Shown: in pieces, positions 47,659-64,000 of the stretch
Numbering within the stretch: the stretch's first letter is position 1
How the letters are laid out: the number at the start of each line of letters is the position of its first letter
Origin: Gemmatimonadetes bacterium SCN 70-22
GTDB taxonomy: Bacteria; Gemmatimonadota; Gemmatimonadetes; Gemmatimonadales; Gemmatimonadaceae
Direction: 5' to 3'
Length of the DNA stretch: 64,000 nt
Assembly (NCBI GenBank): GCA_001724275.1
Contig: MEDZ01000011.1
Coordinates: 1 to 64,000 of the forward strand
The notes under the pieces: generated by a model
The model's input: only the letters and a program-made list of their open reading frames with translations
Database searches by the model: none
Told to the model about the DNA's origin: nothing
Position numbers and translations under genes: made by a program

Positions 47659-47803
47659 CAGTCGGAGTGGGGCGACATCTTCGGCGACAACGTCATGGCG
47701 GCGGAGCGCATCGACGGGCTCGTGCGCGACTGCCACATCGTGAATATCCGCGGCAACAGCTATCGCTTGCGGCACCATGCGGTCCTGCACCGCGTCTTGG
47801 GGA
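47659..47803 (+). pseudogene. istB 3'-end fragment (IS21 family)
   Basis: On the plus strand, SEWGDIFGDNVMAAERIDGL and CHIVNIRGNSYRLRHH are the C-terminal end of an IstB ATPase, related to but clearly different from the copy on the minus strand (EEWGESFGDNVMAAGLMDRL). Nothing upstream resembles the rest of IstB. It is an older IS21 remnant lying tail to tail with the later element. Confidence 0.7.
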
Positions 47804-48611
47804 GTCCTCCGTCAACGCCGATGGAAAATGGGACACGGGGTGGGGGGCTAGCCCGGCAGGTCAGCTGTGGTGTCGATGCGACGTCCTCGTCGCTCCCGGG
47901 GTGAGGAGGGGGTGGGGGGCGGCGGGTATGGAGCCGCCGGGTGAGTTCGGCGTGCGGACGGAGGCGGTAGCTGTTGCCCCGAATGTTGACGATGTGACAG
48001 TGTTGCACGAGGCGGTCCATGAGGCCCGCGGCCATGACGTTGTCGCCGAAGCTCTCGCCCCACTCCTCGAAGCCCTTGTTGCTCGTGCGGATCGTCGAGG
48101 CGTGCTCGTAGCGCCGGGCGATGACCTGGAAGAAGAGCATCGCCCCGACGCGCGAGATCGGGAGGTAGCCGATCTCGTCGATCACCATGAGACTGAGGAA
48201 GACGAGCGTCTGGAGCCACTGCGGCAAGCGTACCGCGGCTTGGGCATCCTCCAACGCGTGGAGGAGATCTGTGAGCGTCGTAAAGTAGACCCGACGTCCC
48301 TGCTCGGCGGCCCGCACGGCGAGCGACAGCGCGAGGTGCGTCCTGCCCACACCGGGCGGCCCGAGGAACTCGACGTTCTCCTTGCGGTCGAGGAAGCCGC
48401 GCGTGTACAGGCTCTCGAGTTGCTCGCGCTTGACCGACGGCTGGAACGTGAAGTCGAAGTCGGCGAGCGTCGTGAGGACGGGGAGGCGCGCGGCCCGCAT
48501 CGCAGTCTGGAGCCGCCGGGCGTTGCGCAGGTCGATGTGGGCGCTAAGGGGCTGCGTGCGGAGATGCTTACGCACCGAGGGGGCCGTGGTGGCCAGACGG
48601 GCGGCGCTCAT
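47760..48611 (-). CDS. istB: IstB-like ATP-binding protein with altered Walker A
   Basis: A 283-residue AAA+ helper of IS21 transposition. ATG 48611 overlaps the istA stop (ATGA). Family features: VLTTLADFDFTFQPSVKREQ, FLGPPGVGRTHLAL, LSLMVIDEIGYLPIS (Walker B) and IRTSNKGFEEWGESFGDNVMA. The Walker A lysine is replaced by Arg90 (GVGRTH instead of GxGKTH), which should abolish ATP use. The frame also reads through the element's terminal repeat into flanking DNA, ending at 47760, so the native C-terminus is lost. Probably non-functional. Confidence 0.8.
   Translation of the reverse strand: MSAARLATTAPSVRKHLRTQPLSAHIDLRNARRLQTAMRAARLPVLTTLADFDFTFQPSVKREQLESLYTRGFLDRKENVEFLGPPGVGRTHLALSLAVRAAEQGRRVYFTTLTDLLHALEDAQAAVRLPQWLQTLVFLSLMVIDEIGYLPISRVGAMLFFQVIARRYEHASTIRTSNKGFEEWGESFGDNVMAAGLMDRLVQHCHIVNIRGNSYRLRPHAELTRRLHTRRPPPPPHPGSDEDVASTPQLTCRASPPPRVPFSIGVDGGLPKTRCRTAWCRKR
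47817..47838 (+). repeat. IS21 terminal repeat, low-coordinate end
   Basis: Inward-facing 22-base repeat with core GAAAATGGGACACGG, matching the two copies at the other end (core GAAGATGGGACACGC at 49721-49742) at 13 of 15 core positions. Confidence 0.65.
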
Positions 48612-49662
48612 GAAACGCCCACACGGCCTAACGCCGCGTAGTCTTGCAGCGACCGCCGCTCGACGACCACGCTGGGGACTGGCGACGCCGTGCGCGGAGC
48701 GGCGCTTCGTGCGGGCAGCGCGACCAGCCCGCTGCGATGAGGGCTCGTGGGTAACGGCTGCAACGTCGGCCGCACGACCGTGGCGAACCGATCGGCCGGC
48801 ACGCAGTCCGTCGTGCTGTGAACGCTGACGTTGGCGACCGTGTCGAGCCACGTCATGACCTGCGCGTTGAGGTCCGCATCGCTCACGAGCGTGCGGCCGT
48901 AGTGAATGCTCTCGCGGAGGTAGCGGATCGGCCGCTCGCCCTTGTCCTTGGTCTGGGCCCGGCCGGAATGACAGGCCTGCACGGGGGCGCCCTAATGTCG
49001 CGCAAAGCGCACGAACTTGAGATTCGCCTCGAGGCCCCCGCCCGCCAGGTGATCGTTGCGCGTGAGCACGCTCCGCATCCGGTCGAATAGCAGCTCGCGC
49101 GGCACGCCGCCCAGGTGGCGAAGCAGGCCGACAAGTCGTGATGCTCAAGCGCCTGGAGATCCTGCGGCGGATAGAACTGCATCCAGAGCAGGCGCGAGTG
49201 CCCGAGCACCACGACGAGCGCCCAACGCACGCCACAGGGCAAGCGGCACCGCGCGAAGTCGACCTGCGCCTGATGTACCGGAACGGTCTGGAAGCGCTCC
49301 GGTTGAGGGCGGTGGACGAAGGCCGGCGACGAAGACGCGGAGCTGGAAGATCCCGCCGTTATAGCCCGCCGCCCGGCACTCGGCGAAGAGGCGGGTGGGA
49401 CTTCGGTCGCGGTGGTCCCGCAGACGGTCAGTGATACGGGCGGTGAGCGCCGGGAGATTGGGGACGGACCCCAGGCCAAGGGTGGTAGCGCGCCTGGATG
49501 AGGGCCAGCGGCTCCTCCATTGAGCCCTTGTGGATCCACCGATACGTCGTGCCCCTCCCCACTCGGGTCCCCCGAGCCGCTTCGAGGCGACCTCCTCCGG
49601 CCTCGGCCGACAGTTGTGACGAGCGCATACGTGTGGACGCTCCATGCATATCGGGCTCTCAC
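48608..49662 (-). pseudogene. istA: istA transposase remnant, frameshifted
   Basis: Pieces of an IS21 transposase are spread over different frames: TYRWIHKGSMEEPL and ARYHPWP (near 49500), then DRSPTRLFAECRAAGYNGG, then VHQAQVDFARCRLPCGVRWA with the first catalytic-type Asp (QVDF), and finally ERPIRYLRESIHYGRTLVSDADLN to the stop at 48608. At least two frameshifts and lost segments separate them, so no full transposase is made. Confidence 0.75.
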
Positions 49663-50688: not shown

Positions 50689-51947
50689 GACGCCTCCATG
50701 GCTGAACGTTTGCGAGCCAGGCACGGCAAGTTCGTGAATACCTTCTCGAAGGCATCGCCGAGTTCACGAACTCGTGCCGGCGGTACCCCTAACCAGCGAC
50801 TCTCGCTTGCAATGAGGTACTCCTCCTCACAACGACGCTCGGCGACGGCGAGTCGCGCTCCCGGTTGCACACCGGCCCATCGCGGCCGCAGGTGAATCGG
50901 AACCCGCACCGGCCCTTCTTCCAGGGGAACACCTTCCGCACGGAGTGCTGAAACGATCGCCGAGCGCGTCACGCCGAGGCAGCCCTCCCGGTCGAAGGCA
51001 AGGGGAAACGAGTACCACCCCGAGATCGCCCCCCCGTGTGAAGCGACGACCGATACGCCGGGCAGCTCGGCAATCCGCGCGCGGAGCGCTTCGCACGCAC
51101 GCCGGCGCCGCGCAATCCGGGCGGGCAGTTCCGGAAGAGCCGCCGTCCCCATGACAGCGGCGAGTGGATGCATCCGCAACGACAGCGAGCACTCGTCGAT
51201 CAGCGGGCGCATGGCCGGATCGAGCACCTCCCGACGCGCACGCGACGGGTGCTGACTGACGACGACCAACGCATCGGCAATTGAAGGATCGTTCGTCGTG
51301 ATCATTCCCCCCTCGCCAACGTATGGCAGCTTGTAGCGGCCGAAGCTCCAGGCGACGGCATCCCCGAATCGGCCTAGCGGCTCCGCGTCAACGGATGCAC
51401 CCATCGCCTGCGCCGCATCGAAGATCAGGTGCAGGCCATGAGCGTCGGCAACATCACGCAACTTCCGGACATCGGCTGGAATCCCGAACATGTGGGTGGC
51501 CAGGATCGCGCGCGTGCGCTTGTTGATGAGTGTCCCCAATGTGGTAGCGTCCAGGCACGCAGTGAGCGGATCGATGTCCGCGAATCGTGGGATGGCGCCA
51601 ACAGCGAGTACTGCGCCCACCGTGGAACCCCACCCGTACGTAGAGACGATGACCTCGTCGCCGGGCGCGACACCCAACGCGTGGAGAATCGCGATGAGCG
51701 CCGCCGTTCCCGACGACGTGCCGATCGCGAACGAGGCGCCCACCATTCGCGCGAACGCGCGCTCGAACATTCCGACAGCACCTGAGCCCTCGTGATCCGA
51801 GAGCAGCAGCGCATCGTCTGCAGCGGCAAGCAGATGTTGCGCAACTGCCCGACGCCCCCGCGCCCCCGTCCATGCAACGGCCAACTCGGCCGTTCGCACC
51901 GTCGGCGTGCCGCCGTGCACGGCGAGGGACTGCGGCGTGACGATCAT
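50685..51947 (-). CDS. DegT/DnrJ/EryC1/StrS-type PLP aminotransferase
   Basis: A 420-residue fold-type I PLP enzyme. Landmarks: ASFAIGTSSGTAALIAILHA, GDEVIVSTYGWGSTVGAVLAVG, HLIFDAAQAMGA (Asp177) and the PLP lysine in SFGRYKLPYVGEGGM (Lys206). Family members transfer an amino group to keto-sugars, often for surface glycans or antibiotics. No sugar-nucleotide genes are near; instead it is embedded, with ATGA overlaps on both sides, in an operon with an AAA+ ATPase and vWA protein, so its substrate here may be unusual. Confidence 0.88.
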   Translation of the reverse strand: MIVTPQSLAVHGGTPTVRTAELAVAWTGARGRRAVAQHLLAAADDALLLSDHEGSGAVGMFERAFARMVGASFAIGTSSGTAALIAILHALGVAPGDEVIVSTYGWGSTVGAVLAVGAIPRFADIDPLTACLDATTLGTLINKRTRAILATHMFGIPADVRKLRDVADAHGLHLIFDAAQAMGASVDAEPLGRFGDAVAWSFGRYKLPYVGEGGMITTNDPSIADALVVVSQHPSRARREVLDPAMRPLIDECSLSLRMHPLAAVMGTAALPELPARIARRRRACEALRARIAELPGVSVVASHGGAISGWYSFPLAFDREGCLGVTRSAIVSALRAEGVPLEEGPVRVPIHLRPRWAGVQPGARLAVAERRCEEEYLIASESRWLGVPPARVRELGDAFEKVFTNLPCLARKRSAMEAS

Positions 51948-53734
51948 CGGCGCCACCGTCCTTCCGCGCGCTCCCGCTCGCGCTGGCTGATGCGATTTGC
52001 GAGCTCCTCGTCGTTCATTCGGCCGGTTGCGGGATCGACCAGGTCCCGGAGGTACGGGGGAAGGTCGCGCACGTCGCACCCACCCTCGCTCATCCACGGA
52101 AGCAACGAGGTGAACGACGCCATCTGCAGCGCCTTCAATGCGAGAAACTCGTGCTCCGTCGTATTCTGCGACGACTTATAGTCCTCGATTGCCCCGGCGA
52201 GATCGCCGTGCCCAATCGGAGCACCGAACTCTCCCGTGCGCGCGTCCGCCAACATCGCCGCAGCCACGATGATTTCCTGGAGCGACCTGACCGTCAGCAT
52301 CTCCAGCGCGGCGCTCGACTCGAAGACTCCTAGGTCGATGCCTTCGGCGAGCTGCCGGTCGATCTGCTTCGCCAGCAACGGAATCAGCTCGCCACGCTCC
52401 CGCGTGGTCGGGTGAATCCAGGGTAGCACGACCTGGAAACGGTCCAAGAGCGCCGGATCCAGGATGTCGGGACGGTTGGTCGTGCCAATCCACAGGATCC
52501 GCCCCCGCTTGTTCATCCCGCCGAAGTACTCGAACAGTCGGGCGAGCATGCGCTCCGACGTCCCTCCATCGGCAGACTGCCCAGTGCTCCGCTGCCCAAT
52601 GGCCTGATCCAGTTCGTCCGTCCACAGGATGCACGGCGACAGGTTCTCGGCGATCCAGAGTACACGCTCGAGGTTGCGCTCGCTCTGGCCCACGAACTGG
52701 TCGCGCACGTTCCGCATGATCAGGAGCGGCGCCCCGAACTCGCGGGCGACCGCGCGCACGATGTGGCTCTTGCCGCACCCTGGCACCCCGGCCAGGAGGA
52801 TCGCCTGCGGGCACGACGCGGTCCCACGCATCCACTGTCCCCGCACTGCGCTGAAGTAGCGCTTCGCGTGCGCGGCTCCGGCAACGGACTCGAATCCCGC
52901 GCGCGGTTCGACGACTTCCACGAGATCGCGCGAAATCTGCGCAATGGCATGCTGCTTCTCGGTCCGCGCGTCGTCACGTGTCACGTCGGTCTTGCGGGCG
53001 GCGGCACGGCGCATCAGGTATTCGATGTCGCTGAGGCGCAGGCCGCACGTGTTGCGTGCGAACTCCTCCACCGGGTAGTCCGCGGCGAGCGTTCCCAGCG
53101 TGCGCGCATAGCCATTGGCACGAACGTGCGATAGGTGCGTCGTGAAGCGCGCGCGCTCCTCCTCCGTCGGCAGGTCGATCCGCACCGTGCGGAACCCGCC
53201 GGTGCCGAGCAGCAGCTCATGGAGCGCGCCGTCGTTGGACACAATGACGATGAAGTTCCCCGCCTGGCGGATCAGGTCGTCCTGCGCCCAGTGGTGCACG
53301 ATCTGCACGGCCTGGGCATGTGAAGGCGACATGCCAGCGGCCGAGCCGCTGCTCTGCGGCAGGAGCAATTCCGCATAGTCGAGGATCACGGCGGCCTGCG
53401 ACCCTGGCAGGCGCAGCACGCGCTCCAGCGCGGACAGCACCAGCAGGCACTCGGACGGTCCGACGGGGACGTCGGCGAATGGCGGCGACGCCGCGCTCCC
53501 GCGGTTGGGCGGCGTCTCCAATACCTCGAATCCCGTGCCGAGCGCGTGGTAGCCCACGCGTAACCCCTGCTGGGAGAGATGGTGCGCGATCGCGTATCGA
53601 AGAAACGCCACCTCCACCCCGGGAGATGCGAGGTGTACACGGTCAACGGTGTTGCCGGTGAGTATCACGCCGGCCGCGCCCGACGTCCGCGCCTCCTCGA
53701 GTTCCTGGAGCCATTGCGGCATGGGAGCGCTCAT
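51944..53734 (-). CDS. Ycf46-like AAA+ ATPase
   Basis: A 596-residue protein with two ATPase-like halves. Residues 1-265 look like a degenerate AAA domain: no P-loop, but a Walker-B-like QAAVILDYAELLLP near 113-126. The C-terminal half is a full AAA+ module: GVPGCGKS (316-323), Walker B ILWTDELD (369-376), then SADGGTSERMLARLF and TTNRPDILDPALLDRF (arginine finger region). This order, and SPCILWTDELD with DGGTSERML, closely resembles Ycf46 proteins of cyanobacteria and plastids. It starts in an ATGA overlap with the previous gene. Likely remodels a protein partner from the operon; function of Ycf46 proteins is not well known. Confidence 0.82.
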   Translation of the reverse strand: MSAPMPQWLQELEEARTSGAAGVILTGNTVDRVHLASPGVEVAFLRYAIAHHLSQQGLRVGYHALGTGFEVLETPPNRGSAASPPFADVPVGPSECLLVLSALERVLRLPGSQAAVILDYAELLLPQSSGSAAGMSPSHAQAVQIVHHWAQDDLIRQAGNFIVIVSNDGALHELLLGTGGFRTVRIDLPTEEERARFTTHLSHVRANGYARTLGTLAADYPVEEFARNTCGLRLSDIEYLMRRAAARKTDVTRDDARTEKQHAIAQISRDLVEVVEPRAGFESVAGAAHAKRYFSAVRGQWMRGTASCPQAILLAGVPGCGKSHIVRAVAREFGAPLLIMRNVRDQFVGQSERNLERVLWIAENLSPCILWTDELDQAIGQRSTGQSADGGTSERMLARLFEYFGGMNKRGRILWIGTTNRPDILDPALLDRFQVVLPWIHPTTRERGELIPLLAKQIDRQLAEGIDLGVFESSAALEMLTVRSLQEIIVAAAMLADARTGEFGAPIGHGDLAGAIEDYKSSQNTTEHEFLALKALQMASFTSLLPWMSEGGCDVRDLPPYLRDLVDPATGRMNDEELANRISQRERERAEGRWRR

Positions 53735-54564
53735 TTGCGGGTAGTCGAAAGGGTGACCCTCGACCGCCGCACAGGGCGCTGTTCGTCGTCCTGTGCGGTC
53801 GGCACACCGCCCAGCGCCGAGCGCAGTCGGCGCACGAGCACTCCGCCGTTCGGATCGCCGTGCGTCCTCCGGTCACGCAGGGAGAGCGCCAAGCCGTGGC
53901 GCCCCATGGCCGCCCGCAGCCGTTCGGCCACGGCGCGACAGTCCAGGCCTGCCATGCCCTGGAGGTCCATGTTGATGTGGCCACGCGCGGGATCGAGTTC
54001 CACCGTCACCGCGGACCGGCCCGCACCGATCGCGGTAAGGGCCGCGCGTCCGCCGGACCAGTTGGCGGATCGACCGACCGTGAACCCGCACTCGGACAGC
54101 GCGGCGCTCACCATACGCAGCTGCACCGTGCGCTCGGCGACGGCGAGTCGCAGCGCCGCGGCCTCGAGTCCGGACGTCAGTTCGCGTGCGGCCGCGGTGA
54201 GGGCCTCACAACGACCAAACGGATCGGCCGTGCCGCCGGCGGCGAGCGATGCCGCACTTGCCATCCCCTCCACCCGCTCGAGCAGACCAGGACGCTCGGC
54301 GTCGAGCGACGCCCGCATCAGCGCGGCGTGCGGAGCGACTCGAAGGGTCGCGAGCGCACTGGTCGTCCCGGCCAACGCCTCGTCCAAGCGGGCGGAGGAG
54401 CGCGTCAGGGCGGCGCCCAATCCCGACAGCAGCTCAGCCAGCACGACCGCCGTAGGCCGGCCGCGGGCGGCGCCGACGTCGGCGCGAAGCATGGCCGATT
54501 GCGCAATCTGCTCGCTCGCGACCGAGGTGAAGGCGTCAACCGTGTAGTAGCTCTCCTCGCTCAT
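53731..54564 (-). CDS. Unknown protein with DUF2997-like segment
   Basis: A 277-residue protein from ATG 54564 (ATGA overlap). Residues 1-150 are Ala/Leu-rich and helical. The later part, VSAALSECGFTVGRSANWSG, then AVTVELDPARGHINMDLQG and MAGLDCRAVAERLRAAMGR, resembles DUF2997 (short strand pair ending in a Gly-x-x-Cys helix), a small family found beside Ycf46 and Ycf35 (DUF1257) genes. The adjacent Ycf46-like ATPase makes this reading more likely. The tail is basic (RRSRVTLSTTRK). Confidence 0.55.
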   Translation of the reverse strand: MSEESYYTVDAFTSVASEQIAQSAMLRADVGAARGRPTAVVLAELLSGLGAALTRSSARLDEALAGTTSALATLRVAPHAALMRASLDAERPGLLERVEGMASAASLAAGGTADPFGRCEALTAAARELTSGLEAAALRLAVAERTVQLRMVSAALSECGFTVGRSANWSGGRAALTAIGAGRSAVTVELDPARGHINMDLQGMAGLDCRAVAERLRAAMGRHGLALSLRDRRTHGDPNGGVLVRRLRSALGGVPTAQDDEQRPVRRSRVTLSTTRK

Positions 54565-55826
54565 CGGCTCAGTCCCTCGTCGGCGTTGGCGTTGACGTTG
54601 GCGTTGGCGGTGGCCTCGGCGTTGCGGCCGGGGTACGCCTCCCACGCGTGCTGTTGCGACACAACGGGCTCCTCGAACTCAACGCCTTGCTCTGGCGTTC
54701 TCGTGTCCGGCGACTCCTGTACAGGAGACGCCGCCGCCTTCGCTGGTGCGACACCCTCGTGCAGTGATCCGGGACCGGCGGGGGCGTCGGTCACTTCCAG
54801 GTCGTCGGTCCAGGACGTGAGTGCGATCATCCACGGCCGCGCCCCTTGGCCCAGCGCGCTCTCACGACGATTTAGCGCGCGCACGTAAGAGATGGCCGGG
54901 CGCGTAAGCGTGATCGTGCCCTTCTGGCAGAGTTCCATCGCAGGGTGCGCAAACTCGTAGAGCCATCCGAGCAGACCATTCGCAACGACCGCGGCCGCTC
55001 CGGCCAAGCGGGCAGCCGTCGCCGTGAGCGTCAGCAGGAGGAGCCAGAGTTCGATCGAAAGCGCTACGGGTCCGTAGTGCCACGTGACCATTACCAAGAG
55101 GAATGTGGACACCGCGAGGCCGATGAACAGCCACTCGTACATCGCCCGCTCGATGCCAGAGGCCGGCGTGACCGGCGCGACATCCTCGGATGGCGCCTCG
55201 ATCAGCGCCGCCACTTCATCCACCACCCCTTCGGGCATCGCGGACACGGCTGATGTCGCCGGCTGGGCCGAGGTATACACCTCGACTCGGTAGAGACTCG
55301 AGACTAACAAGCTTCCGGCCGTGGCGAAGAGCGCTACGAGGGCGGCGCCCCTGTAGGCGATGCGCTCGCCACGACCCAAACCGCGCGTTGCCAGAAGCCG
55401 TGGCCTCGTGAGTTCAGACGCGAACCAGGGCGCGAAGAGGGCCGTCGCGAGGGTCGTGAGGAGGAGTGCGGGCATGGCATAGGTCTCGATCGCGCCCGCC
55501 GGGACGCCGAGGCGCCGTTCGAGGGTGCCCAAGTCCCATCCGAGGACCGGGCCGAACGTGACCGCGGCCAACTCCGCGTCGGCCACGGCCAGGATCGTCC
55601 AGATCAGCGTCGTGATTGCGGCGCCGAAGAGCGTTCCACCACCGCTGGCCTCGCGCGTCGCGTCGACCCGCTGCCGCAGCGACGCGGCGCGCGCCGTCAT
55701 ACGATCGCGCGCCCCGATGAGGGCAACGTGTGGCGCACTGAAGATGGCCGCCAGCACGCGGTGCGCGGTCTGGTGATAGAGGCCGATGACAACGACACTC
55801 AGCAGCAGGAGTCCTGGTATCATCAT
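54561..55826 (-). CDS. Multi-pass membrane protein with low-complexity tail
   Basis: A 421-residue protein with about six membrane segments, among them MMIPGLLLLSVVVIGLYH, TLFGAAITTLIWTILAVADA, YAMPALLLTTLATALFAPWF, AALVALFATAGSLLVSSLY and WLFIGLAVSTFLLVMVTWHY. A loop between helices 4 and 5 is acidic and Pro-rich. The C-terminal 110 residues are soluble and low-complexity, ending in an Ala-Asn repeat (ATANANVNANADE). No family recognised. It overlaps the genes on both sides by 4 bases. Confidence 0.7.
   Translation of the reverse strand: MMIPGLLLLSVVVIGLYHQTAHRVLAAIFSAPHVALIGARDRMTARAASLRQRVDATREASGGGTLFGAAITTLIWTILAVADAELAAVTFGPVLGWDLGTLERRLGVPAGAIETYAMPALLLTTLATALFAPWFASELTRPRLLATRGLGRGERIAYRGAALVALFATAGSLLVSSLYRVEVYTSAQPATSAVSAMPEGVVDEVAALIEAPSEDVAPVTPASGIERAMYEWLFIGLAVSTFLLVMVTWHYGPVALSIELWLLLLTLTATAARLAGAAAVVANGLLGWLYEFAHPAMELCQKGTITLTRPAISYVRALNRRESALGQGARPWMIALTSWTDDLEVTDAPAGPGSLHEGVAPAKAAASPVQESPDTRTPEQGVEFEEPVVSQQHAWEAYPGRNAEATANANVNANADEGLSR
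54581..54620. repeat. Short tandem repeat (GTTGGC-type) in coding sequence
   Basis: Near-perfect repeats of GTTGGC/GTTGAC encode the Ala-Asn run at the end of the membrane protein. Such slippage-prone tracts can vary in length or shift the frame. Confidence 0.6.
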
Positions 55827-56473
55827 CGGGGCTTGCCCTCCGCGGGGTAGATGTTCACTTCAACGGCGCCGTGAGCGCGGAAGTACTCCTTCCACACCTC
55901 GCGCGTCGCGAGAGACCTCGCGACTGCGCTCTCGACCTGCAGCATGACGATCGAGATGACGACCCCCTGCAGATCAGGGGCGATCTTCTGCTGGAGGTTG
56001 TCGAATCCATCAGTGACGATTCGCACTTCCCGCTGGACGCCAGCGGGTGCCGCTGTCGCTGCCTCGCTAGCACTCTGAAGAAAGCCCCTGATATCGGTCG
56101 CCGGGGCTCGCACGATTGGGGCGGCTAGCAGGCGCGCAACGGCGGCGCGTTTCGCGGCTGCTGCTCGGGTTTCCCACTGCGCGTAGGCCCTGCTGCATGG
56201 CACGTCCATTCTGCTCCCACACACACGTGGTGCCTCGGGTACTCGCAGGTGAACCACACGCTCGGTGGCGGCGTACGACCGCTCGGAAATCCAGCGCACG
56301 ATGACCTCATCGCCGCTTCCCGCCTTGGCCAGTACGCGCGCGCACTCGTAGACCGCATCCTCGCGCATCGAGTATGCGCTGCCACTCCGATCAATCCCGC
56401 ACACCACCAGGCGTCGGACCGGAACGGAATCCACCGAGAGTGCCATCGTTAGAACGAGCGGGAGTACCAGCAT
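55823..56473 (-). CDS. Exported vWA-like domain protein
   Basis: A 216-residue protein; ATG 56473 has GAGG 6 bases upstream and a hydrophobic signal (MLVLPLVLTMALSVDS). A von Willebrand A-like fold follows directly: VVCGIDRSGSAYSM has the MIDAS pattern DxSxS (Asp28, Ser30, Ser32) and VRIVTDGFDN supplies Thr154 and Asp155. Cysteines CGIDRS, YECARVL, VCGSRM and PCSRAY suggest disulfides outside the cytoplasm. It is the first gene of the seven-gene operon and would bind a partner through a metal ion. The 240 bases upstream form a divergent promoter region with the CARF-nuclease gene. Confidence 0.75.
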   Translation of the reverse strand: MLVLPLVLTMALSVDSVPVRRLVVCGIDRSGSAYSMREDAVYECARVLAKAGSGDEVIVRWISERSYAATERVVHLRVPEAPRVCGSRMDVPCSRAYAQWETRAAAAKRAAVARLLAAPIVRAPATDIRGFLQSASEAATAAPAGVQREVRIVTDGFDNLQQKIAPDLQGVVISIVMLQVESAVARSLATREVWKEYFRAHGAVEVNIYPAEGKPR

Positions 56474-56713
56474 CGGAGACCTCGCAAGAGGGGTTGGCTC
56501 GTGCCTGCATCGCATAGACGCACGCACCTCTGCGCCATGCGACACCTTCTCGCCGTCTTGGAGATCCGCGTCCCACAGCTGCTTCGCACGCCGCCGCCTT
56601 GCCACCGCGCCGATTCGCCCGCATGTTGCGCGTCGCAACAGCACCGCCAGCGCGCATGACGACGATGGCGAATACACCGAAGACTGGACGCGCCGGGACG
56701 GGAGGACGGGCTA

Positions 56714-58750
56714 ATGGGGGCGACATATGTCACGATGGTCGGGAAGAGCCCCGCCGCTAACGCCGTAGCCCTGAAGGCGTGGCTGGCGTACCAGCCGAAC
56801 GCCATCGACCGCGTGATACTTCTGGAGACGCACTGGGCGAAGTCATCCGGTGCCTCGGCGCGCCTGGGGCAGTGGATCACACGGGAGGTGTGCACGGAGG
56901 TAGATCACGTGCCGCTGCCCGCGGGACTGCGTGAACTCCGCGACGTCGTGCAGACCGCACTCGGTTCCGATCGAACCGGGCAATCGCCGCCCGTCAGCAA
57001 CGTCGCGGCCGGAATGCGCTCCTTCATCGTGACCATCGCGGCGGCCATGCCCGCCGGGACACGCTTCCTGAGCCCGAACCCGATTGGCGGATACTGTCGC
57101 GTCCAGGTGTTCGAGCCGCGCGAGACCACGCATCGCATCGCACTCGCCGACCTGGGAGTCCGGACGCTGCTCGACCTCTGGGGTGGGTGTAAGGACTATG
57201 CCTATCAGGGGTTCGAGCGGCCGAACGAGGACATCGCCCGTATCGTCGAGCGTGACCACCTCGCCGCCGACGAGTGGTGCGATCCCCGCACCGTGTGGAA
57301 CCTCGAGATGCAGCTGGCGAGTGGGGGAGCAGTACGATTCGATGCCGCACGCGAATCGTTCGGCCAACTCATCACCATCTCCGTGCGTCGAGAAGTCCCA
57401 AACCGCGAGCGTGGCGCCGCCGCGAAGGCCGAGCGTGCCCTGCTGTCAGAGGGAGATAGCCTCGGCGGTCTCATGGTGGCACACCACGTTGTGTGCGACT
57501 GGCGCGACCTCTCGAACCGGCTCACGGAGTCGCGCCGAGTCCGGTGCATCGACGTGAGGAGCGATCAGCGACCGGATTGGAGGGAGCAGCAGCTCACGAC
57601 CTTGAGGGCGTTGCTGCGTCCTGCCGCGGCGACTCTCCAGCCCGAAAACGACTCGACACCCGCTGTCGCCGCAGCCGACTCCTCAGGAAAGGGAGGCGAT
57701 GCGACCCCCCGGCTCCTCCTCTTCCTCGGCGCCGATCCGAGCACGACGCTCGTGAGTCTTTGCACGCACCGGCCAATCGACGCCTGGATCGGTTTCGACG
57801 CGAGCCCAACCGGAGAGCGCGTGCGCGCCGCCCGTGACCGATTCCTGAAGGAGTTGACGAACATCCCCGTGTCGCGCGTGCATTGGGCACCAACGAACAT
57901 CAGCGGCTCCGGGATCGGCCACTCGATCAGCAACGCATGGGCAGATGGCGGCGGCGGCCGAATCGACGTCACCCCGGGCACGAAGGAGCAGGCGCTGGCA
58001 CTCTCACGCGTTCCGGGCGCGGAGCTCTGGTCGCTGGTGGCACACCAGGGCCATGCCGAGAGCCTCGTCACCGGGGAATCGATCAGGCTCGAGGGCCCGC
58101 CAATCGCCGTGCAGGCCAGGTGCTGTGGCGGCCCGTTGCGTCCGGCGGGCGGCGGGCGACTCTGGAACGGTGTCGAAATGAGGGAGCACGCAGACCGCTA
58201 CGCCAGGCTCGCGAAGGCATTCGAGACGCCCGATCTGAGGTGGAACCCTGACTACGCGCGCAGCCGCTGGATGGGCGATGATGAGGCACCGGCGCACTGG
58301 CGAGGGTGGCCTCGAGCAGACGACGACAAGAGGGTCAGTCGCCTCTTCGAGGAGGCGGTAGCGTGGCGGCTGCTACAGCACGCTGGCGCTGACGAGGTGG
58401 TGGTCGCCGTCGAATGGCAGTTTGCGCGTAACAACGACGTCCGCGATGAAATCGACGTCGTAGCTCGCTTTGGCGGCGTGTTCGTGTCCGTTGAATGCAA
58501 GGCCTGGATGGGCAAGAACCCGAACGCGACCTCGCTCAACGAACACTTCAAGTTCCACCGCGGACGCACCACCCGCGGCCTCGGGCGGTTTGCCATTCCT
58601 CTGCTCGTCTTGCTGCGCCAGCCGCAGGAGCAGGTCGCCGCCGATACCGACCTCTGGACATTCAGTCAGCTTTCGACTCCAGCGCAGGCGCGGTCGCTTG
58701 TCGGCGCGCTCATCCGGTCGAAGAGCACGATGGTCCCGGAAGAAACGTAG
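56714..58750 (+). CDS. CARF-domain PD-(D/E)XK nuclease (DUF1887/Card1/Can2-like)
   Basis: A 678-residue protein; ATG 56714 has GGAGG 8 bases upstream. Three parts: an N-terminal CARF-like Rossmann region (about 4-70, TYVTMVGKSPAANAVALKAW, DRVILLET); a second CARF-like region (about 332-460) with RIDVTPGTKEQALALSRV, matching the NxTGGTK-type loop of DUF1887; and a C-terminal nuclease with FEEAVAWRLL (Glu546/Glu547), DEIDVVARFGGVFVSVECKAW (Asp581, Glu594, Lys596). Card1/Can2 enzymes use a CARF domain to bind cyclic oligoadenylate made by type III CRISPR Cas10 and then cut nucleic acid. At 678 residues this protein is much longer than Card1/Can2 (about 370-440). No Cas10 gene is visible, so its trigger is open. 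Confidence 0.8.
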   Translation: MGATYVTMVGKSPAANAVALKAWLAYQPNAIDRVILLETHWAKSSGASARLGQWITREVCTEVDHVPLPAGLRELRDVVQTALGSDRTGQSPPVSNVAAGMRSFIVTIAAAMPAGTRFLSPNPIGGYCRVQVFEPRETTHRIALADLGVRTLLDLWGGCKDYAYQGFERPNEDIARIVERDHLAADEWCDPRTVWNLEMQLASGGAVRFDAARESFGQLITISVRREVPNRERGAAAKAERALLSEGDSLGGLMVAHHVVCDWRDLSNRLTESRRVRCIDVRSDQRPDWREQQLTTLRALLRPAAATLQPENDSTPAVAAADSSGKGGDATPRLLLFLGADPSTTLVSLCTHRPIDAWIGFDASPTGERVRAARDRFLKELTNIPVSRVHWAPTNISGSGIGHSISNAWADGGGGRIDVTPGTKEQALALSRVPGAELWSLVAHQGHAESLVTGESIRLEGPPIAVQARCCGGPLRPAGGGRLWNGVEMREHADRYARLAKAFETPDLRWNPDYARSRWMGDDEAPAHWRGWPRADDDKRVSRLFEEAVAWRLLQHAGADEVVVAVEWQFARNNDVRDEIDVVARFGGVFVSVECKAWMGKNPNATSLNEHFKFHRGRTTRGLGRFAIPLLVLLRQPQEQVAADTDLWTFSQLSTPAQARSLVGALIRSKSTMVPEET

Positions 58751-58771
58751 GCGCTCACCACTCGGTAGTAC

Positions 58772-60145
58772 TCAGCGGCGCAGTAGTGCCCACCGCAATC
58801 GTTCCAACAACGTCGCGTCCTTGCGTGGAACATCCTGCGCCATCGCCCGGTAGGACTCGACCCTCGCGTTCAGCTCGTCCTCCCGCTCGCTCCACTGTGT
58901 CCGTGCTTCAATCAGGCGTGACTCTGCGGCCGCTGCCGCCTCCAATGCAGTCGACACATCAGCCTCGGCGCGGCGAGCCAGTTCACACGCCTCCGCCTCG
59001 ACTCGTGCGGCCTCCGCGAGAATGCGGTCGTGCATTCGCTCGTCGTCTGACAGGATATCGAGCGGAGTATCGTTCGCCTCTGCCGGCGCCCACGGCGCGA
59101 ACACGTGCTCATCGTAGTCCCTGATCGACTTTGACCCCAGGGATCGCTCGTACTCATCGTGCTGAAACAGTTCCGCCGCATAGAACCGCTGCTGGATCGC
59201 ATTCGTCCACCCCGCGAGGCGACAGCTCGTGCGCCCCGGTTTGTAGACCTCGAGGTCTGTCGGGTAGGAGTGCCGCTTGATGGCGCGCCACATCGGATTG
59301 CGCACACGCGACAACATATGCTCGAACTGATCGCGTATGTTCGCGCCTGCCTCGCCCAGCGTTCGCGATGCGGCGGGAGAGAGCATGACCTGCATCCCGG
59401 CCGTCGCGCGAAGGTCGCCGAGCAGCATTAGCCCAAAGGCTGACAACGTATAGCTGTCGGCATCGACCATCTCGAACAGCCCTGCGATGCCCCCCATGTC
59501 GACGCCCAGCTGGTTCACCAATTCGTGCCGGCCGATAATCGCATCGCGCTCGAGATTCGCCAGCAGGCGGCCGGCCACGCGAAGCGCGTCATGATCGAAA
59601 CCGATCGGGAGTGGGGGGAGCGTGACCAGCGTGCCGGTCATCTGAAACCGGTAGGTCAGCGGAACGCGCCGCAGCATCGCATAGATCGAGACATACGGGA
59701 TGACCGGGTTGATCCCTGCTCCGACGCTGATGGAGATGGAAGAACCTCGTTCGCGCTCATGCGCGACCACCGCGTCGAGCTCTTCCACGAGGGAAAGCAA
59801 TCCCTCGGTGCGAAAGGCGTCGGCATCATCGAGGGTCAGCCGCGGAATCACCTTGACCTCTGCAGTCACCCCGAAACGCAGCTCGGCGATACGTCTGACG
59901 AGCTGCGCGGCAGCCGTGCCTGCCTCGGTGTCTGTTGCGAGGAGAATCAGCCGGTCCTCGCCACCGGCTCTACTGGCGGCAAGTGTCCCGATCTCCGCCG
60001 ACAGTTCGTTGGCAGCGGAGCCTAGCGTCTCGATGAGCTGTCCGGTGATCGCGAACGCCTGCGGCTCGATGCCGCGCTTCGCCAGGTTGCCGAAGACCGA
60101 CGTTCCCGAGGTAAAGACGAAGGATTGCATCCGGTAATCATTCAT
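58772..60145 (-). CDS. CARF-domain protein (APE2256-like) with wHTH and probable RelE-like domain
   Basis: A 457-residue protein from ATG 60145 (ATG 60130 is an alternative). Residues 6-180 form a CARF domain of the Cas_APE2256 type: SFVFTSGTSVFGNL, RLILLATDTEAG, ISVGAGINPVIPYVSIYAML and LVTLPPLPIGFD. A winged-helix-like part follows (185-245). Residues about 270-340 (RNPMWRAIKRH, DLEVYKPGRTSCRLAGW, RFYAAELFQHDEYER) look like a RelE-type fold, as in the CARF-RelE ribonuclease Cami1; this is my less certain assignment. The end is a coiled coil (375-435). It converges with the CARF nuclease gene (21-base gap). Confidence 0.65.
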   Translation of the reverse strand: MNDYRMQSFVFTSGTSVFGNLAKRGIEPQAFAITGQLIETLGSAANELSAEIGTLAASRAGGEDRLILLATDTEAGTAAAQLVRRIAELRFGVTAEVKVIPRLTLDDADAFRTEGLLSLVEELDAVVAHERERGSSISISVGAGINPVIPYVSIYAMLRRVPLTYRFQMTGTLVTLPPLPIGFDHDALRVAGRLLANLERDAIIGRHELVNQLGVDMGGIAGLFEMVDADSYTLSAFGLMLLGDLRATAGMQVMLSPAASRTLGEAGANIRDQFEHMLSRVRNPMWRAIKRHSYPTDLEVYKPGRTSCRLAGWTNAIQQRFYAAELFQHDEYERSLGSKSIRDYDEHVFAPWAPAEANDTPLDILSDDERMHDRILAEAARVEAEACELARRAEADVSTALEAAAAAESRLIEARTQWSEREDELNARVESYRAMAQDVPRKDATLLERLRWALLRR

Positions 60146-60291
60146 GTGATTCCGATCGCGCGCAATGTCGCCATAGGCTGCTCCGGGACGCGCGCCTCTC
60201 GCAGAAAGGGGGGGGCGGTGCATATTTCGCCGCCGCTCACCAGCAGCGGCGTGTCATCTCCCTCTCGCCCACGCCGACCGCTCGGGAACGC

Positions 60292-61767
60292 ATGATGCCG
60301 CCGATGCCGCTCTGGAACCTCGATGTCCTCCCCGCAATCCAAACGTCGATTCGCGCCGGTGCCCTGGTGGCCGCGGTTCGCAGGTCGATCGACGCGATGA
60401 TGGCCGGCGGTCACCAAGCGACGCACCTGGTGATGAACACGCTGGAATGGGAACTCCATGAACGGCGCGCGTGGTCACCCGCGGAACTGACCCTCGCGCT
60501 GCGACTCGCCAGTGACAGCGGGTTGGCGACGCTCTCCACGCTGCTCGGACAGCTGCTCCCGGTGACGGTGCAACCGGAGGCCGGGAAGGCGTTCATCCTC
60601 ACCGCTGGCTCACAACAACTGCAGGACGTCGGTGTAGTGTTGCCGTTGCGCGTGACCACCACCTGGTGGGGGGGCGGATTCGAACTCTGTCCCAGGCAGT
60701 ACACCGCAACGGACGCCATCGCCGCCTTTCGCCATGGGGCCATGGCGGCAGGCAATGCCCTGCTCGGGGCTTTCGGCGCCGCCACCCTCACGCGCCACGT
60801 GATCGTCAATAATTGCCGCGTGCGCGGCGACTTCGACGGTTTGCGATACCCTGTCGACGGCGAATCGCTGGGACTCGGCGCGGCGATCGCCACACTGTCG
60901 AGCTACACCAACTGGTGCGTGCCGGTCGATGCGGGGTTCACGGGGCGCATCGGTCACGATGGCACGATCTACTCGGTGGGCGAAATCGCCACCAAGCTGC
61001 GAGGCGCCGCCGACAAGGGGTTGAGATGCATTTACCTTCCGGCGGCGAACGACGGCGCGGAGCACCGCCAGCTGGCGTCCGACCTGGGGCTCACACTCCG
61101 CTGGGTCGAGTCGCTCGCCGACGTCGTTCGTGATCTCGGCCTCACCGACGACATGCGCGAGGCGGTCCGCGCACTCGACGCGACGGCTCTCGCACCCGAG
61201 GCCACCAGGCGATACTGGATGACGGAGTCCCGTCCTGGTGAGGCGCGCCGGGTCCTCTTCTCCGCCATCGGAAAATCCGATCCAATCGGGACGATGAAGG
61301 ACCGCAGCGGGGTTCCTATCGGAACCGACGACGGACCATTGCTCACGCTCTGCCGCGAGCTGTCGCCGAGCGTTGTCCATTGCCTGTACACCGTGGCGCC
61401 GAAGGACAACGACTATCGAGACAAGTACACCAACCTCGACGCCATACTCTCGGGTGAGGAGTCAGCAACCAGAATTGTGCCGCATGGGTTGGACGATGTG
61501 CTCGACCCCACCGATCTCGAGTCCCTGCTCCCCGCCTTCGCGCGGGTCGTGGACCAGGTTCTTGCCGAGGAGGATCATCCGAATGTGGAGTTCTACGCCA
61601 ACGTCACCTCCGGAACGGGGCAGATGTTGATCACATGGCATTTGCTGCAGGAACGGCTCGCCTTGCGGGGCTTCGAGCTACATCTGCTGCAGGTACGGGA
61701 GGCAAGATGGAGGAGAAGTGCTACAGAGCCACTAGTGCGCCGCGTCGTGTTACCCGGCTCCCGGTGA
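60292..61767 (+). CDS. Lon-type protease fused to a C-terminal CARF-like domain
   Basis: A 491-residue protein. Residues 115-275 are a Lon (S16) proteolytic domain: YPVDGESLGLGAAIATL has the nucleophile Ser192 and GEIATKLRGAADKGLRCIYL the base Lys235; their 43-residue spacing equals that of E. coli Lon Ser679/Lys722. There is no Lon ATPase. Residues 320-470 form a CARF-like domain: RRVLFSAIGKSDPIG, DDGPLLTLCRELSPSVVHCLY and FYANVTSGTGQMLITWHLL. It thus resembles in logic the CRISPR-linked protease CalpL (SAVED-Lon), but with another sensor and the opposite domain order. The N-terminal 110 residues are unknown. Divergent from the CARF-RelE-like gene; its 3' end overlaps the next gene by 18 bases. 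Confidence 0.82.
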   Translation: MMPPMPLWNLDVLPAIQTSIRAGALVAAVRRSIDAMMAGGHQATHLVMNTLEWELHERRAWSPAELTLALRLASDSGLATLSTLLGQLLPVTVQPEAGKAFILTAGSQQLQDVGVVLPLRVTTTWWGGGFELCPRQYTATDAIAAFRHGAMAAGNALLGAFGAATLTRHVIVNNCRVRGDFDGLRYPVDGESLGLGAAIATLSSYTNWCVPVDAGFTGRIGHDGTIYSVGEIATKLRGAADKGLRCIYLPAANDGAEHRQLASDLGLTLRWVESLADVVRDLGLTDDMREAVRALDATALAPEATRRYWMTESRPGEARRVLFSAIGKSDPIGTMKDRSGVPIGTDDGPLLTLCRELSPSVVHCLYTVAPKDNDYRDKYTNLDAILSGEESATRIVPHGLDDVLDPTDLESLLPAFARVVDQVLAEEDHPNVEFYANVTSGTGQMLITWHLLQERLALRGFELHLLQVREARWRRSATEPLVRRVVLPGSR

Positions 61768-64000
61768 CAATGCCTGACGGAGTTGCGCTTCGAGGTGGTA
61801 GGCCATGATCTCTGCTGAGACATCACCCTGCGCCTCCTCGCGTGGGCGCGCATAGCGCGCGCGCGATTGTGCGATGATTCGACTGGCGGTGTCTGTCGAG
61901 GTGACGCTCGCAATCGCCGTCGTGCGAACGGAAAAGGGAGCCAGCATCGTGTTCTTGTACATCAGGGAGACGCACGCGTGCCAGTTGGGGAGCTGGACGA
62001 GGTCATGGCGATTGAACGAGGGGATCATCCGCCGTTCTATAGATTCGGCGTCCTTGGGGCCGAGCCGGAATGCCACCATAGTTCCGACATTGCCGAAGAC
62101 CGCGTCGATAATGCGCTCGTCCTTGATCTGTGACAGGAACTGGTTGGCCAGGGTGAGACCGATCCCGAACTTGCGCCCCTCGCTGAGGAGCGTCACGAAG
62201 CTCGATGTCGCCACGCTGTGGAACTCGTCGACATAGAGGTAGAACGCGCTTCGATCACGCTGGGCGAGACGCGCGCGCGCCAACACCGCCGCCTGAAGCA
62301 TCCCCAGCAAGACCATGCCAACGAACCGGCTGTTGCCCTCTCCAAGCTCGCCCTTGGCGAGGTTCACCAGCACGATCTTTCGCTCCGCGATCAGGTGCTC
62401 GAAATTGACCGTCCTGCGGCGCTGGCCAAAAATGTTGCGCAATATCGGATTGAAGAGCAGGCGCTCGAACTTGGAACTGATGTATGTCCCCATCGAGGTG
62501 CCTTCGCTTGCGACCTTGGTGTAGTCGTACGCCGGCAAGACCTGTCCGATCCACGTCATGAGCAGTGTGTCGCGCGTCGATCGCGGGACCCAGCGCTGCC
62601 AGTAGTTCTTGTGCTGGAAGATCTCGTAGAAGTCGAGCAACGAGCCGACCTTGCGCTCCGGATCCGACATCACGAGCAGGAGGTTCATCTTGACATGCTG
62701 CTGAAACAGGGGACCAGCCCAGGTCATCCCCTCCTTTCCGAAGTCGTCCGCCAGGTAGCGCAACATGCTGTCGAGCAGCAATTCCGCCACGAAGTACCGC
62801 TCCTCGGGCGTTGCACAATCCAGTGGGTTGATCGCGACCGGATATTCCGTGTCGGTGGGATCGATGAGCACCACATCGTCCGCTCGCTCCGCGGGTATGC
62901 GGTGGAGGATGTCCCGATATAGGTCGCCATGCGGGTCCATCACGCACACGCCGGCGCCTGCTGCGATGTCGGCGAGGATCCGTGAGAGAAGGAGGGTGCT
63001 CTTGCCCGTTCCGGTCTGGCCCACGACGTACAGGTGACGGAGGCGGTCGGGCCACCCTAACAGCACCGGCCTGGTGACGCCGTACTCCTCGCTCACTCCC
63101 AGCGGGGTGCCGTCATCCCACGGGTGTGCCGGAGCTGGAACGGTGCGCCATGTCTTCGACTCCACGCCAGCGAGGCGTCGAGTGGATGGCGGCGGCGGAA
63201 GCAGGAACAACTTGGCGGCATCGACAACTTCGATCAGGTGGCGCAGCCTGCCCATGTCGATGCCAGGCTGCGTGGACTCCTGCGGCAGGGCGATATCGGC
63301 CGTCTGGAACGCAACCGCCGCTTCGCGCAAGTCGGTGGCGCGCGCAATGTCGTAGCCACCCGACAGCAAGCCCGATCCGCGTGAGCCGGCGGCATCTGAC
63401 ACTTCACTCCCTTCCGGCGTCGAAAGCGCCGTGGCGATGGCCGCAAGTGCGAGCGCCGGCACCTCCGATGGCGACGCGATCTCGATCTGCACCAGGCATA
63501 CGCCTGCCCGCAGGCCCAGAAGCCGTCGTGTCTGCTGCTCCAACAGGACGCCGAGGAGATGCCGCAGCACGGGATGCTGATTCTCGGGGTCGCGAGACGT
63601 GTCGCCGGGGTCGATCTGCATCATCCGTTCGCAGGTGACGACCTGCGTTTCTGCGAGCGACAGTTCCTCTGCGGTTGCGGTCGTCGCCCGGAAGCGAAGG
63701 CTCAACGCGAGCGGCGTCTGCTCGAGGAGGAGCACGCGACAGATGTTGGCGAGCGCATCGGCATCGGCAAGGAACGGCATGACCTGTGCGATGCGATCCG
63801 AAGCGCGCCGTGCGTGCGTCGAGTCGCGCCGAGCATCGTCTTCGAATCCCGTGACCGGTGGACGGGTGCGAGGATGGCGGAGGCTGTCGGGTGAGACGAG
63901 TTCGACCCGGCGTCCGATTCGCACGATGTCGTTGGGCTCGAAGGGACGCGCGATGGCGAGCGCCTCCGTGGCGCCGACGAGTTCCCACTCGCCCTCGGGG
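61750..64000 (-). CDS. VirD4/TraG-like DNA-transfer ATPase (5' end off window)
   Basis: About 750 residues are visible and the frame is open to the right edge, so the start is missing (a GTG at 63924 is internal to the open frame). The motor domain has YVVGQTGTGKSTLLLSRILA (Walker A), VCVMDPHGDLYRDIL, FYLYVDEFHSVATSSFVTLL (Walker B) and GLTLANQFLSQIKDERIIDAVFGNVGTMVAFRLG, as in type IV coupling proteins and related DUF87/TraM-recognition ATPases. No membrane helices are visible in this part. Convergent with the Lon-CARF gene. It may be a conjugation or island-mobility protein, or part of the defence-like island itself. Confidence 0.8.
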   Translation of the reverse strand, partial: PEGEWELVGATEALAIARPFEPNDIVRIGRRVELVSPDSLRHPRTRPPVTGFEDDARRDSTHARRASDRIAQVMPFLADADALANICRVLLLEQTPLALSLRFRATTATAEELSLAETQVVTCERMMQIDPGDTSRDPENQHPVLRHLLGVLLEQQTRRLLGLRAGVCLVQIEIASPSEVPALALAAIATALSTPEGSEVSDAAGSRGSGLLSGGYDIARATDLREAAVAFQTADIALPQESTQPGIDMGRLRHLIEVVDAAKLFLLPPPPSTRRLAGVESKTWRTVPAPAHPWDDGTPLGVSEEYGVTRPVLLGWPDRLRHLYVVGQTGTGKSTLLLSRILADIAAGAGVCVMDPHGDLYRDILHRIPAERADDVVLIDPTDTEYPVAINPLDCATPEERYFVAELLLDSMLRYLADDFGKEGMTWAGPLFQQHVKMNLLLVMSDPERKVGSLLDFYEIFQHKNYWQRWVPRSTRDTLLMTWIGQVLPAYDYTKVASEGTSMGTYISSKFERLLFNPILRNIFGQRRRTVNFEHLIAERKIVLVNLAKGELGEGNSRFVGMVLLGMLQAAVLARARLAQRDRSAFYLYVDEFHSVATSSFVTLLSEGRKFGIGLTLANQFLSQIKDERIIDAVFGNVGTMVAFRLGPKDAESIERRMIPSFNRHDLVQLPNWHACVSLMYKNTMLAPFSVRTTAIASVTSTDTASRIIAQSRARYARPREEAQGDVSAEIMAYHLEAQLRQALSPGAG

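Follow-up and report, generated by a model that had tools for sequence, protein, structure and literature searches.

Do three CARF-type effector genes, lying side by side with no visible synthase of a cyclic messenger, form an island of their own, or do they serve a neighbouring CRISPR system? The question was raised by the first-pass annotation of a 64,000-nucleotide stretch of DNA from Gemmatimonadetes bacterium SCN 70-22 (the window), in which neither Cas10 nor a CRISPR array had been seen. Within the window this holds; a short way past its edge, however, the same contig carries both. That contig (C11) is 82,917 bases long and the window takes up its bases 1-64000, so that contig and window numbering agree, and the synthase seems to be absent because the window ends at 64000. 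Open frames for the three genes were found at the positions claimed and in the announced +/-/+ orientation, and GC content by codon position is coding-like in each of them:

56714-58750, plus strand: gene 1, Can1-like CARF nuclease, 678 aa
58772-60145, minus strand: gene 2, Cami1-like protein (CARF-wHTH-RelE), 457 aa with the ATG at 60145 as start
60292-61767, plus strand: gene 3, Lon-type S16 protease with a C-terminal Csm6-type (CARF1) sensor, 491 aa

The description of all three as CARF-like holds, with support that is strong for gene 2, good for gene 3 and weak but convergent for gene 1. The sequence clearly marks gene 2 as a Cami1 homologue. Its reading as an APE2256-type CARF protein with a RelE domain is borne out by Pfam Cas_APE2256 (E 2.5e-18) and PADLOC CARF_RelE (E 1.3e-35), and residues 71-377 of its longest frame match solved Cami1 (PDB 8phb; E 2.9e-22); the start at 60145, giving 457 aa, is the most likely one. 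Profiles and alignment reveal an APE2256-type CARF, a linked wHTH and a RelE region. The CARF, the winged helix and the beginning of the RelE region align with those of Cami1, and the RelE region retains a lysine, arginines and an HDEY motif at similar positions. Gene 2 was also aligned with four plasmid relatives of about 28% identity, each encoded in a type III locus; it differs in carrying an extra C-terminal tail of ~75 residues, which these relatives do not have.

The Lon-CARF reading of gene 3 is likewise upheld, by Lon_C (E 4.7e-6), Csm6 TIGR02672 (E 9e-11) and PADLOC CARF1 (E 1e-12, or 8e-14 when the sensor domain is isolated), and a CARF motif, 'NVTSGTGQM', is present at residue 437. 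Alignment to solved Lon proteases points to a putative Ser-Lys dyad formed by S192 (in GESLG) and K235, 43 residues apart, as are S679 and K722 of the E. coli Lon dyad. Since the catalogued Lon fusions SAVED4-LON, CARF_m2-LON and CRISPR-Lon match gene 3 in its Lon part only, no model in the libraries used spans the Lon-CARF1 pairing in full. Gene 3 resembles CalpL (Lon-SAVED) in its N-terminal Lon protease, its C-terminal messenger sensor and its association with a type III locus, but its sensor is a Csm6-type CARF rather than SAVED, and no CalpT or CalpS was recognized next to it. It raises the question of whether Lon can be placed under the control of a Csm6-type CARF.

The array starts 1.1 kb, and cas10 6.3 kb, past the window edge, in the following arrangement:

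C11:65,079-65,983, repeat on the minus strand: CRISPR array, 12 exact 37-nt repeats and one degenerate repeat
C11:66,496-68,820: RT-Cas1
C11:68,814-69,602: 262-aa gene, weakly sigma-like (with the next gene, L002:8814-10266)
C11:69,607-70,266: 219-aa gene
C11:70,263-72,002: Cas10, best solved match 8s9t_C (E 1.4e-64)
C11:71,999-74,407: Cas7-Cas5-Cas11 fusion (Cas7-5-11, with a Csx10-type Cas5), 8s9t_A (E 6e-109)
C11:74,394-76,079: Cas7-2x, 8s9t_D (E 3e-70)
C11:76,076-76,669: Csx19 (E 1.7e-19)
C11:76,666-78,417: Cas7-insertion, 8s9t_E (E 3e-67)
C11:78,433-79,323: Cas6

By its gene content as read from the DNA, C11:65079-79323 is a complete type III-Dv locus. In Cas10 the GGDD motif (residue 299) is intact and an HD domain was not found; such domains occur in only 3% of the III-D Cas10s of a 1113-locus survey (PMC11229360). 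The spacers are 32-36 nt long and the repeat ends ATTGAAAC; no match to the array was found in the phage collection. The III-Dv complex of Synechocystis PCC 6803 (pSYSA; 8s9t) is the best solved match of Cas10, Cas7-5-11, Cas7-2x and Cas7-insertion alike. The five complex genes are in identical order in the two loci, both with a GGDD Cas10 devoid of HD, and the order from cas10 to Cas7-insertion is also that of Nostoc pNe_2 (PMC11026444). CARF effectors lie close by on pSYSA too, but they are Csm6/Csx1 there and Can1-like, Cami1-like and Lon-CARF proteins here; further differences here are an RT-Cas1 fusion for adaptation, Cas6 at the operon end and two small genes before cas10. The claimed anomaly of CARF effectors without a synthase is thus removed, and by the very finding that the annotation had named beforehand as speaking against it, a complete type III locus beyond the edge.

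The three genes are most probably (at roughly 0.88) an ancillary effector set of the III-Dv system directly downstream on the same contig, and the proposal that they serve type III signalling with differing outputs is supported. In agreement with this, related III-Dv loci have CARF-type genes nearby, and the plasmid relatives of the Cami1-like protein lie in type III loci. Against it, cas10 is 8.5 kb away from the trio, whose genes do not all point the same way, and a VirD4/HerA-like gene lies between the trio and the array; the trio is therefore not in one operon with cas10.

In such a system, the crRNA-guided complex (Cas10, Cas7-5-11, Cas7-2x, Csx19 and Cas7-insertion) would detect a foreign transcript, and the GGDD palm of Cas10 would make a cyclic oligoadenylate, probably cA4. 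This messenger would bind the CARF domains of the three effectors, whereupon the Can1-like nuclease would nick DNA, and perhaps RNA too, the Cami1-like RelE protein would cleave mRNA on the ribosome and the Lon-CARF protease would cleave some protein target. As cA6-type Csm6 was never found together with cA4 effectors in the 1113-locus survey (PMC11229360), cA4 is predicted to be the common messenger of all three, and the trio poses the question of whether they all respond to one shared messenger. With no HD nuclease in Cas10, it would fall to the effectors, together with Cas7 cleavage of the target RNA, to provide immunity; the outcome, we infer, could be abortive.

The CRISPR system itself is an ordinary, RNA-targeting type III system, and the particular effector mix alone is unusual. 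According to the same survey, three effectors at a single locus are rare and several cA4 effectors per locus are common (PMC11229360), so that the combination of Can1-like, Cami1-like and Lon-CARF proteins appears unusual but of a known kind. Mildly new are the presence of three effectors in one locus, the Lon-CARF protein with a Csm6-type sensor and the two unexplained genes before cas10. The locus is a compact natural case in which to ask why three different effectors would be retained together.

The trio could alternatively be an orphan island answering the messenger of a remote synthase (CBASS, mCpol or a second Cas10), as effectors with no local synthase occur, we infer from the survey, where the genome has type III loci elsewhere (PMC11229360). 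The annotation had proposed a search for synthases to the right and across the genome. Cas10 was found next door, but no SMODS CD-NTase and no mCpol was found in the genome, which leaves Cas10 as the one plausible synthase; the sole other Cas10-palm match of the genome, on contig C48 (E 0.003), falls short of the cut-off. With a complete III-D locus adjoining the trio, an orphan island is very improbable, and this reading was rejected together with the CBASS and mCpol ones.

Within the effector set of the III-Dv system, gene 1 likely has a two-CARF architecture. A CARF-like motif, 'NVAAGM', is found at residue 96 of its product and a second one, 'DVTPGT', at residue 418, the latter region being recognized by its motif only, with no profile match. 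The C-terminal PD-(D/E)xK motif, E579-x-D581 ... E594-x-K596, contains the nuclease active-site residues; the stretch EIDVVARFGGVFVSVECK aligns gap-free with EVDGVFFHRGALWFVECK of Thermus Can1 (TTHB155, 6sce), and the E-x-D-x12-E-x-K spacing is identical. Gene 1 (678 aa) also resembles Can1 (636 aa), and not Can2/Card1 (about 366 aa), in size and has, like Can1, a CARF-like motif in each half. It differs from Can1 in the lack of significant pairwise similarity: direct alignment gave a best E of 0.27. Residues 1-140 gave a Z of 3.0 against Can1 CARF2, and neither profile libraries nor alignment matched the middle of the protein to the inactive nuclease-like domain of Can1, a protein described as confined to Thermus (PMC9704534). 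AlphaFold predictions run without alignments for the Can1-like and Lon-CARF proteins gave no usable fold (pLDDT 31.7 and 37.4).

Gene 1 might instead encode an unrelated, NERD-like PD-(D/E)xK nuclease with no CARF domains. Only its nuclease domain passes E 0.001 (when excised, it reaches E 5e-5 with PADLOC CARF_PDDEXK but 0.007 with Pfam Card1_endonuc), and the Pfam NERD model scores roughly as well as Card1. However, the isolated N-terminal 140 residues match CARF domains only, through the same residues in two libraries (PADLOC Can1, E 0.016; Pfam Csa3_N, which is a CARF domain, E 0.097), matches whose weakness counts against the effector-set reading. The second motif, the Can1-like size and motif spacing and the two adjoining CARF genes also argue against a NERD-like nuclease, which we regard as unlikely.

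The role of Lon-CARF could also differ from that proposed above. The two small genes overlap RT-cas1 and cas10 and hence belong to the cas operon. Against a sigma region 2 profile, the 262-aa protein has an hhalign score of 27.4 (maxima of 18.5 for 100 shuffles and 17.9 for 80 control frames), and its four NCBIfam matches are all sigma-factor models (E 0.009-0.044). As a Lon protease shares the locus with this sigma-like pair, a cascade modelled on CalpL/CalpT/CalpS, with its SAVED sensor, is conceivable. Lon-CARF would cut a regulator, the pair would act as sigma factor and anti-sigma partner, and the messenger would free the sigma factor and alter transcription, so that Lon-CARF would not kill directly. 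CalpL, with its N-terminal Lon and C-terminal sensor, provides a precedent (PMC11417357). Yet no Pfam sigma or anti-sigma domain was found in the pair, the 219-aa protein scores at noise level against the sigma profile, its anti-sigma reading being by eye only, and the pair lies 7 kb from the Lon-CARF gene and is missing from two related III-Dv loci examined. Such a cascade is thus doubtful, and even less likely is its combination with the other outputs, in which one messenger would simultaneously trigger DNA nicking, mRNA cleavage and this switch, through the Csm6-type CARF on Lon and the sigma-like/unknown pair of the cas operon. A search of plasmids and of 336 genomes from the phylum turned up no relatives of the 219-aa protein.

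With the exception of this genome, Cas10 and the Cami1-like protein are each absent from 375 sampled genomes of the phylum, and the Can1-like protein from 346, a distribution that fits acquisition of the locus as a single island. Pattern scans, which detect close relatives only, covered species genomes and viral contigs and found none for the Can1-like or the Lon-CARF protein; plasmids yielded no full-length relatives of either. In 201 genomes of the order, the Lon-CARF search returned chiefly matches to the Lon domain (residues ~180-300), as housekeeping Lon would give.

Several genes surround the trio and the CRISPR locus. Between the Lon-CARF gene and the array, and across the window edge (61750-64392), lies the gene for an 880-aa VirD4/TraG-HerA-like ATPase, with mad8 as top PADLOC match (E 1e-14) and 5156 as top PHROG (E 1e-45). 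On the other side, 51944-56677 (minus strand) contains four overlapping genes, possibly an operon of their own for defence or stress: one encodes a CDC48/IetA-like AAA ATPase, two have no family matches and in the remaining one a vWA-like D-x-S-x-S motif was recognized by eye. A separate, type I-E-like repeat (CGGGTCATCCCCGCACGCGCGGGGAACAC) occurs where the CRISPR locus ends, as two copies plus a remnant (C11:79841-79990; L002:19841-19990). Finally, IS21-type IstB-like genes flank the CRISPR/effector region (47760-49235 and L003:703-2819) as its possible mobile borders; 96 of 211 aligned residues are identical between their products, and the right-hand gene lies beside an integrase-like gene.
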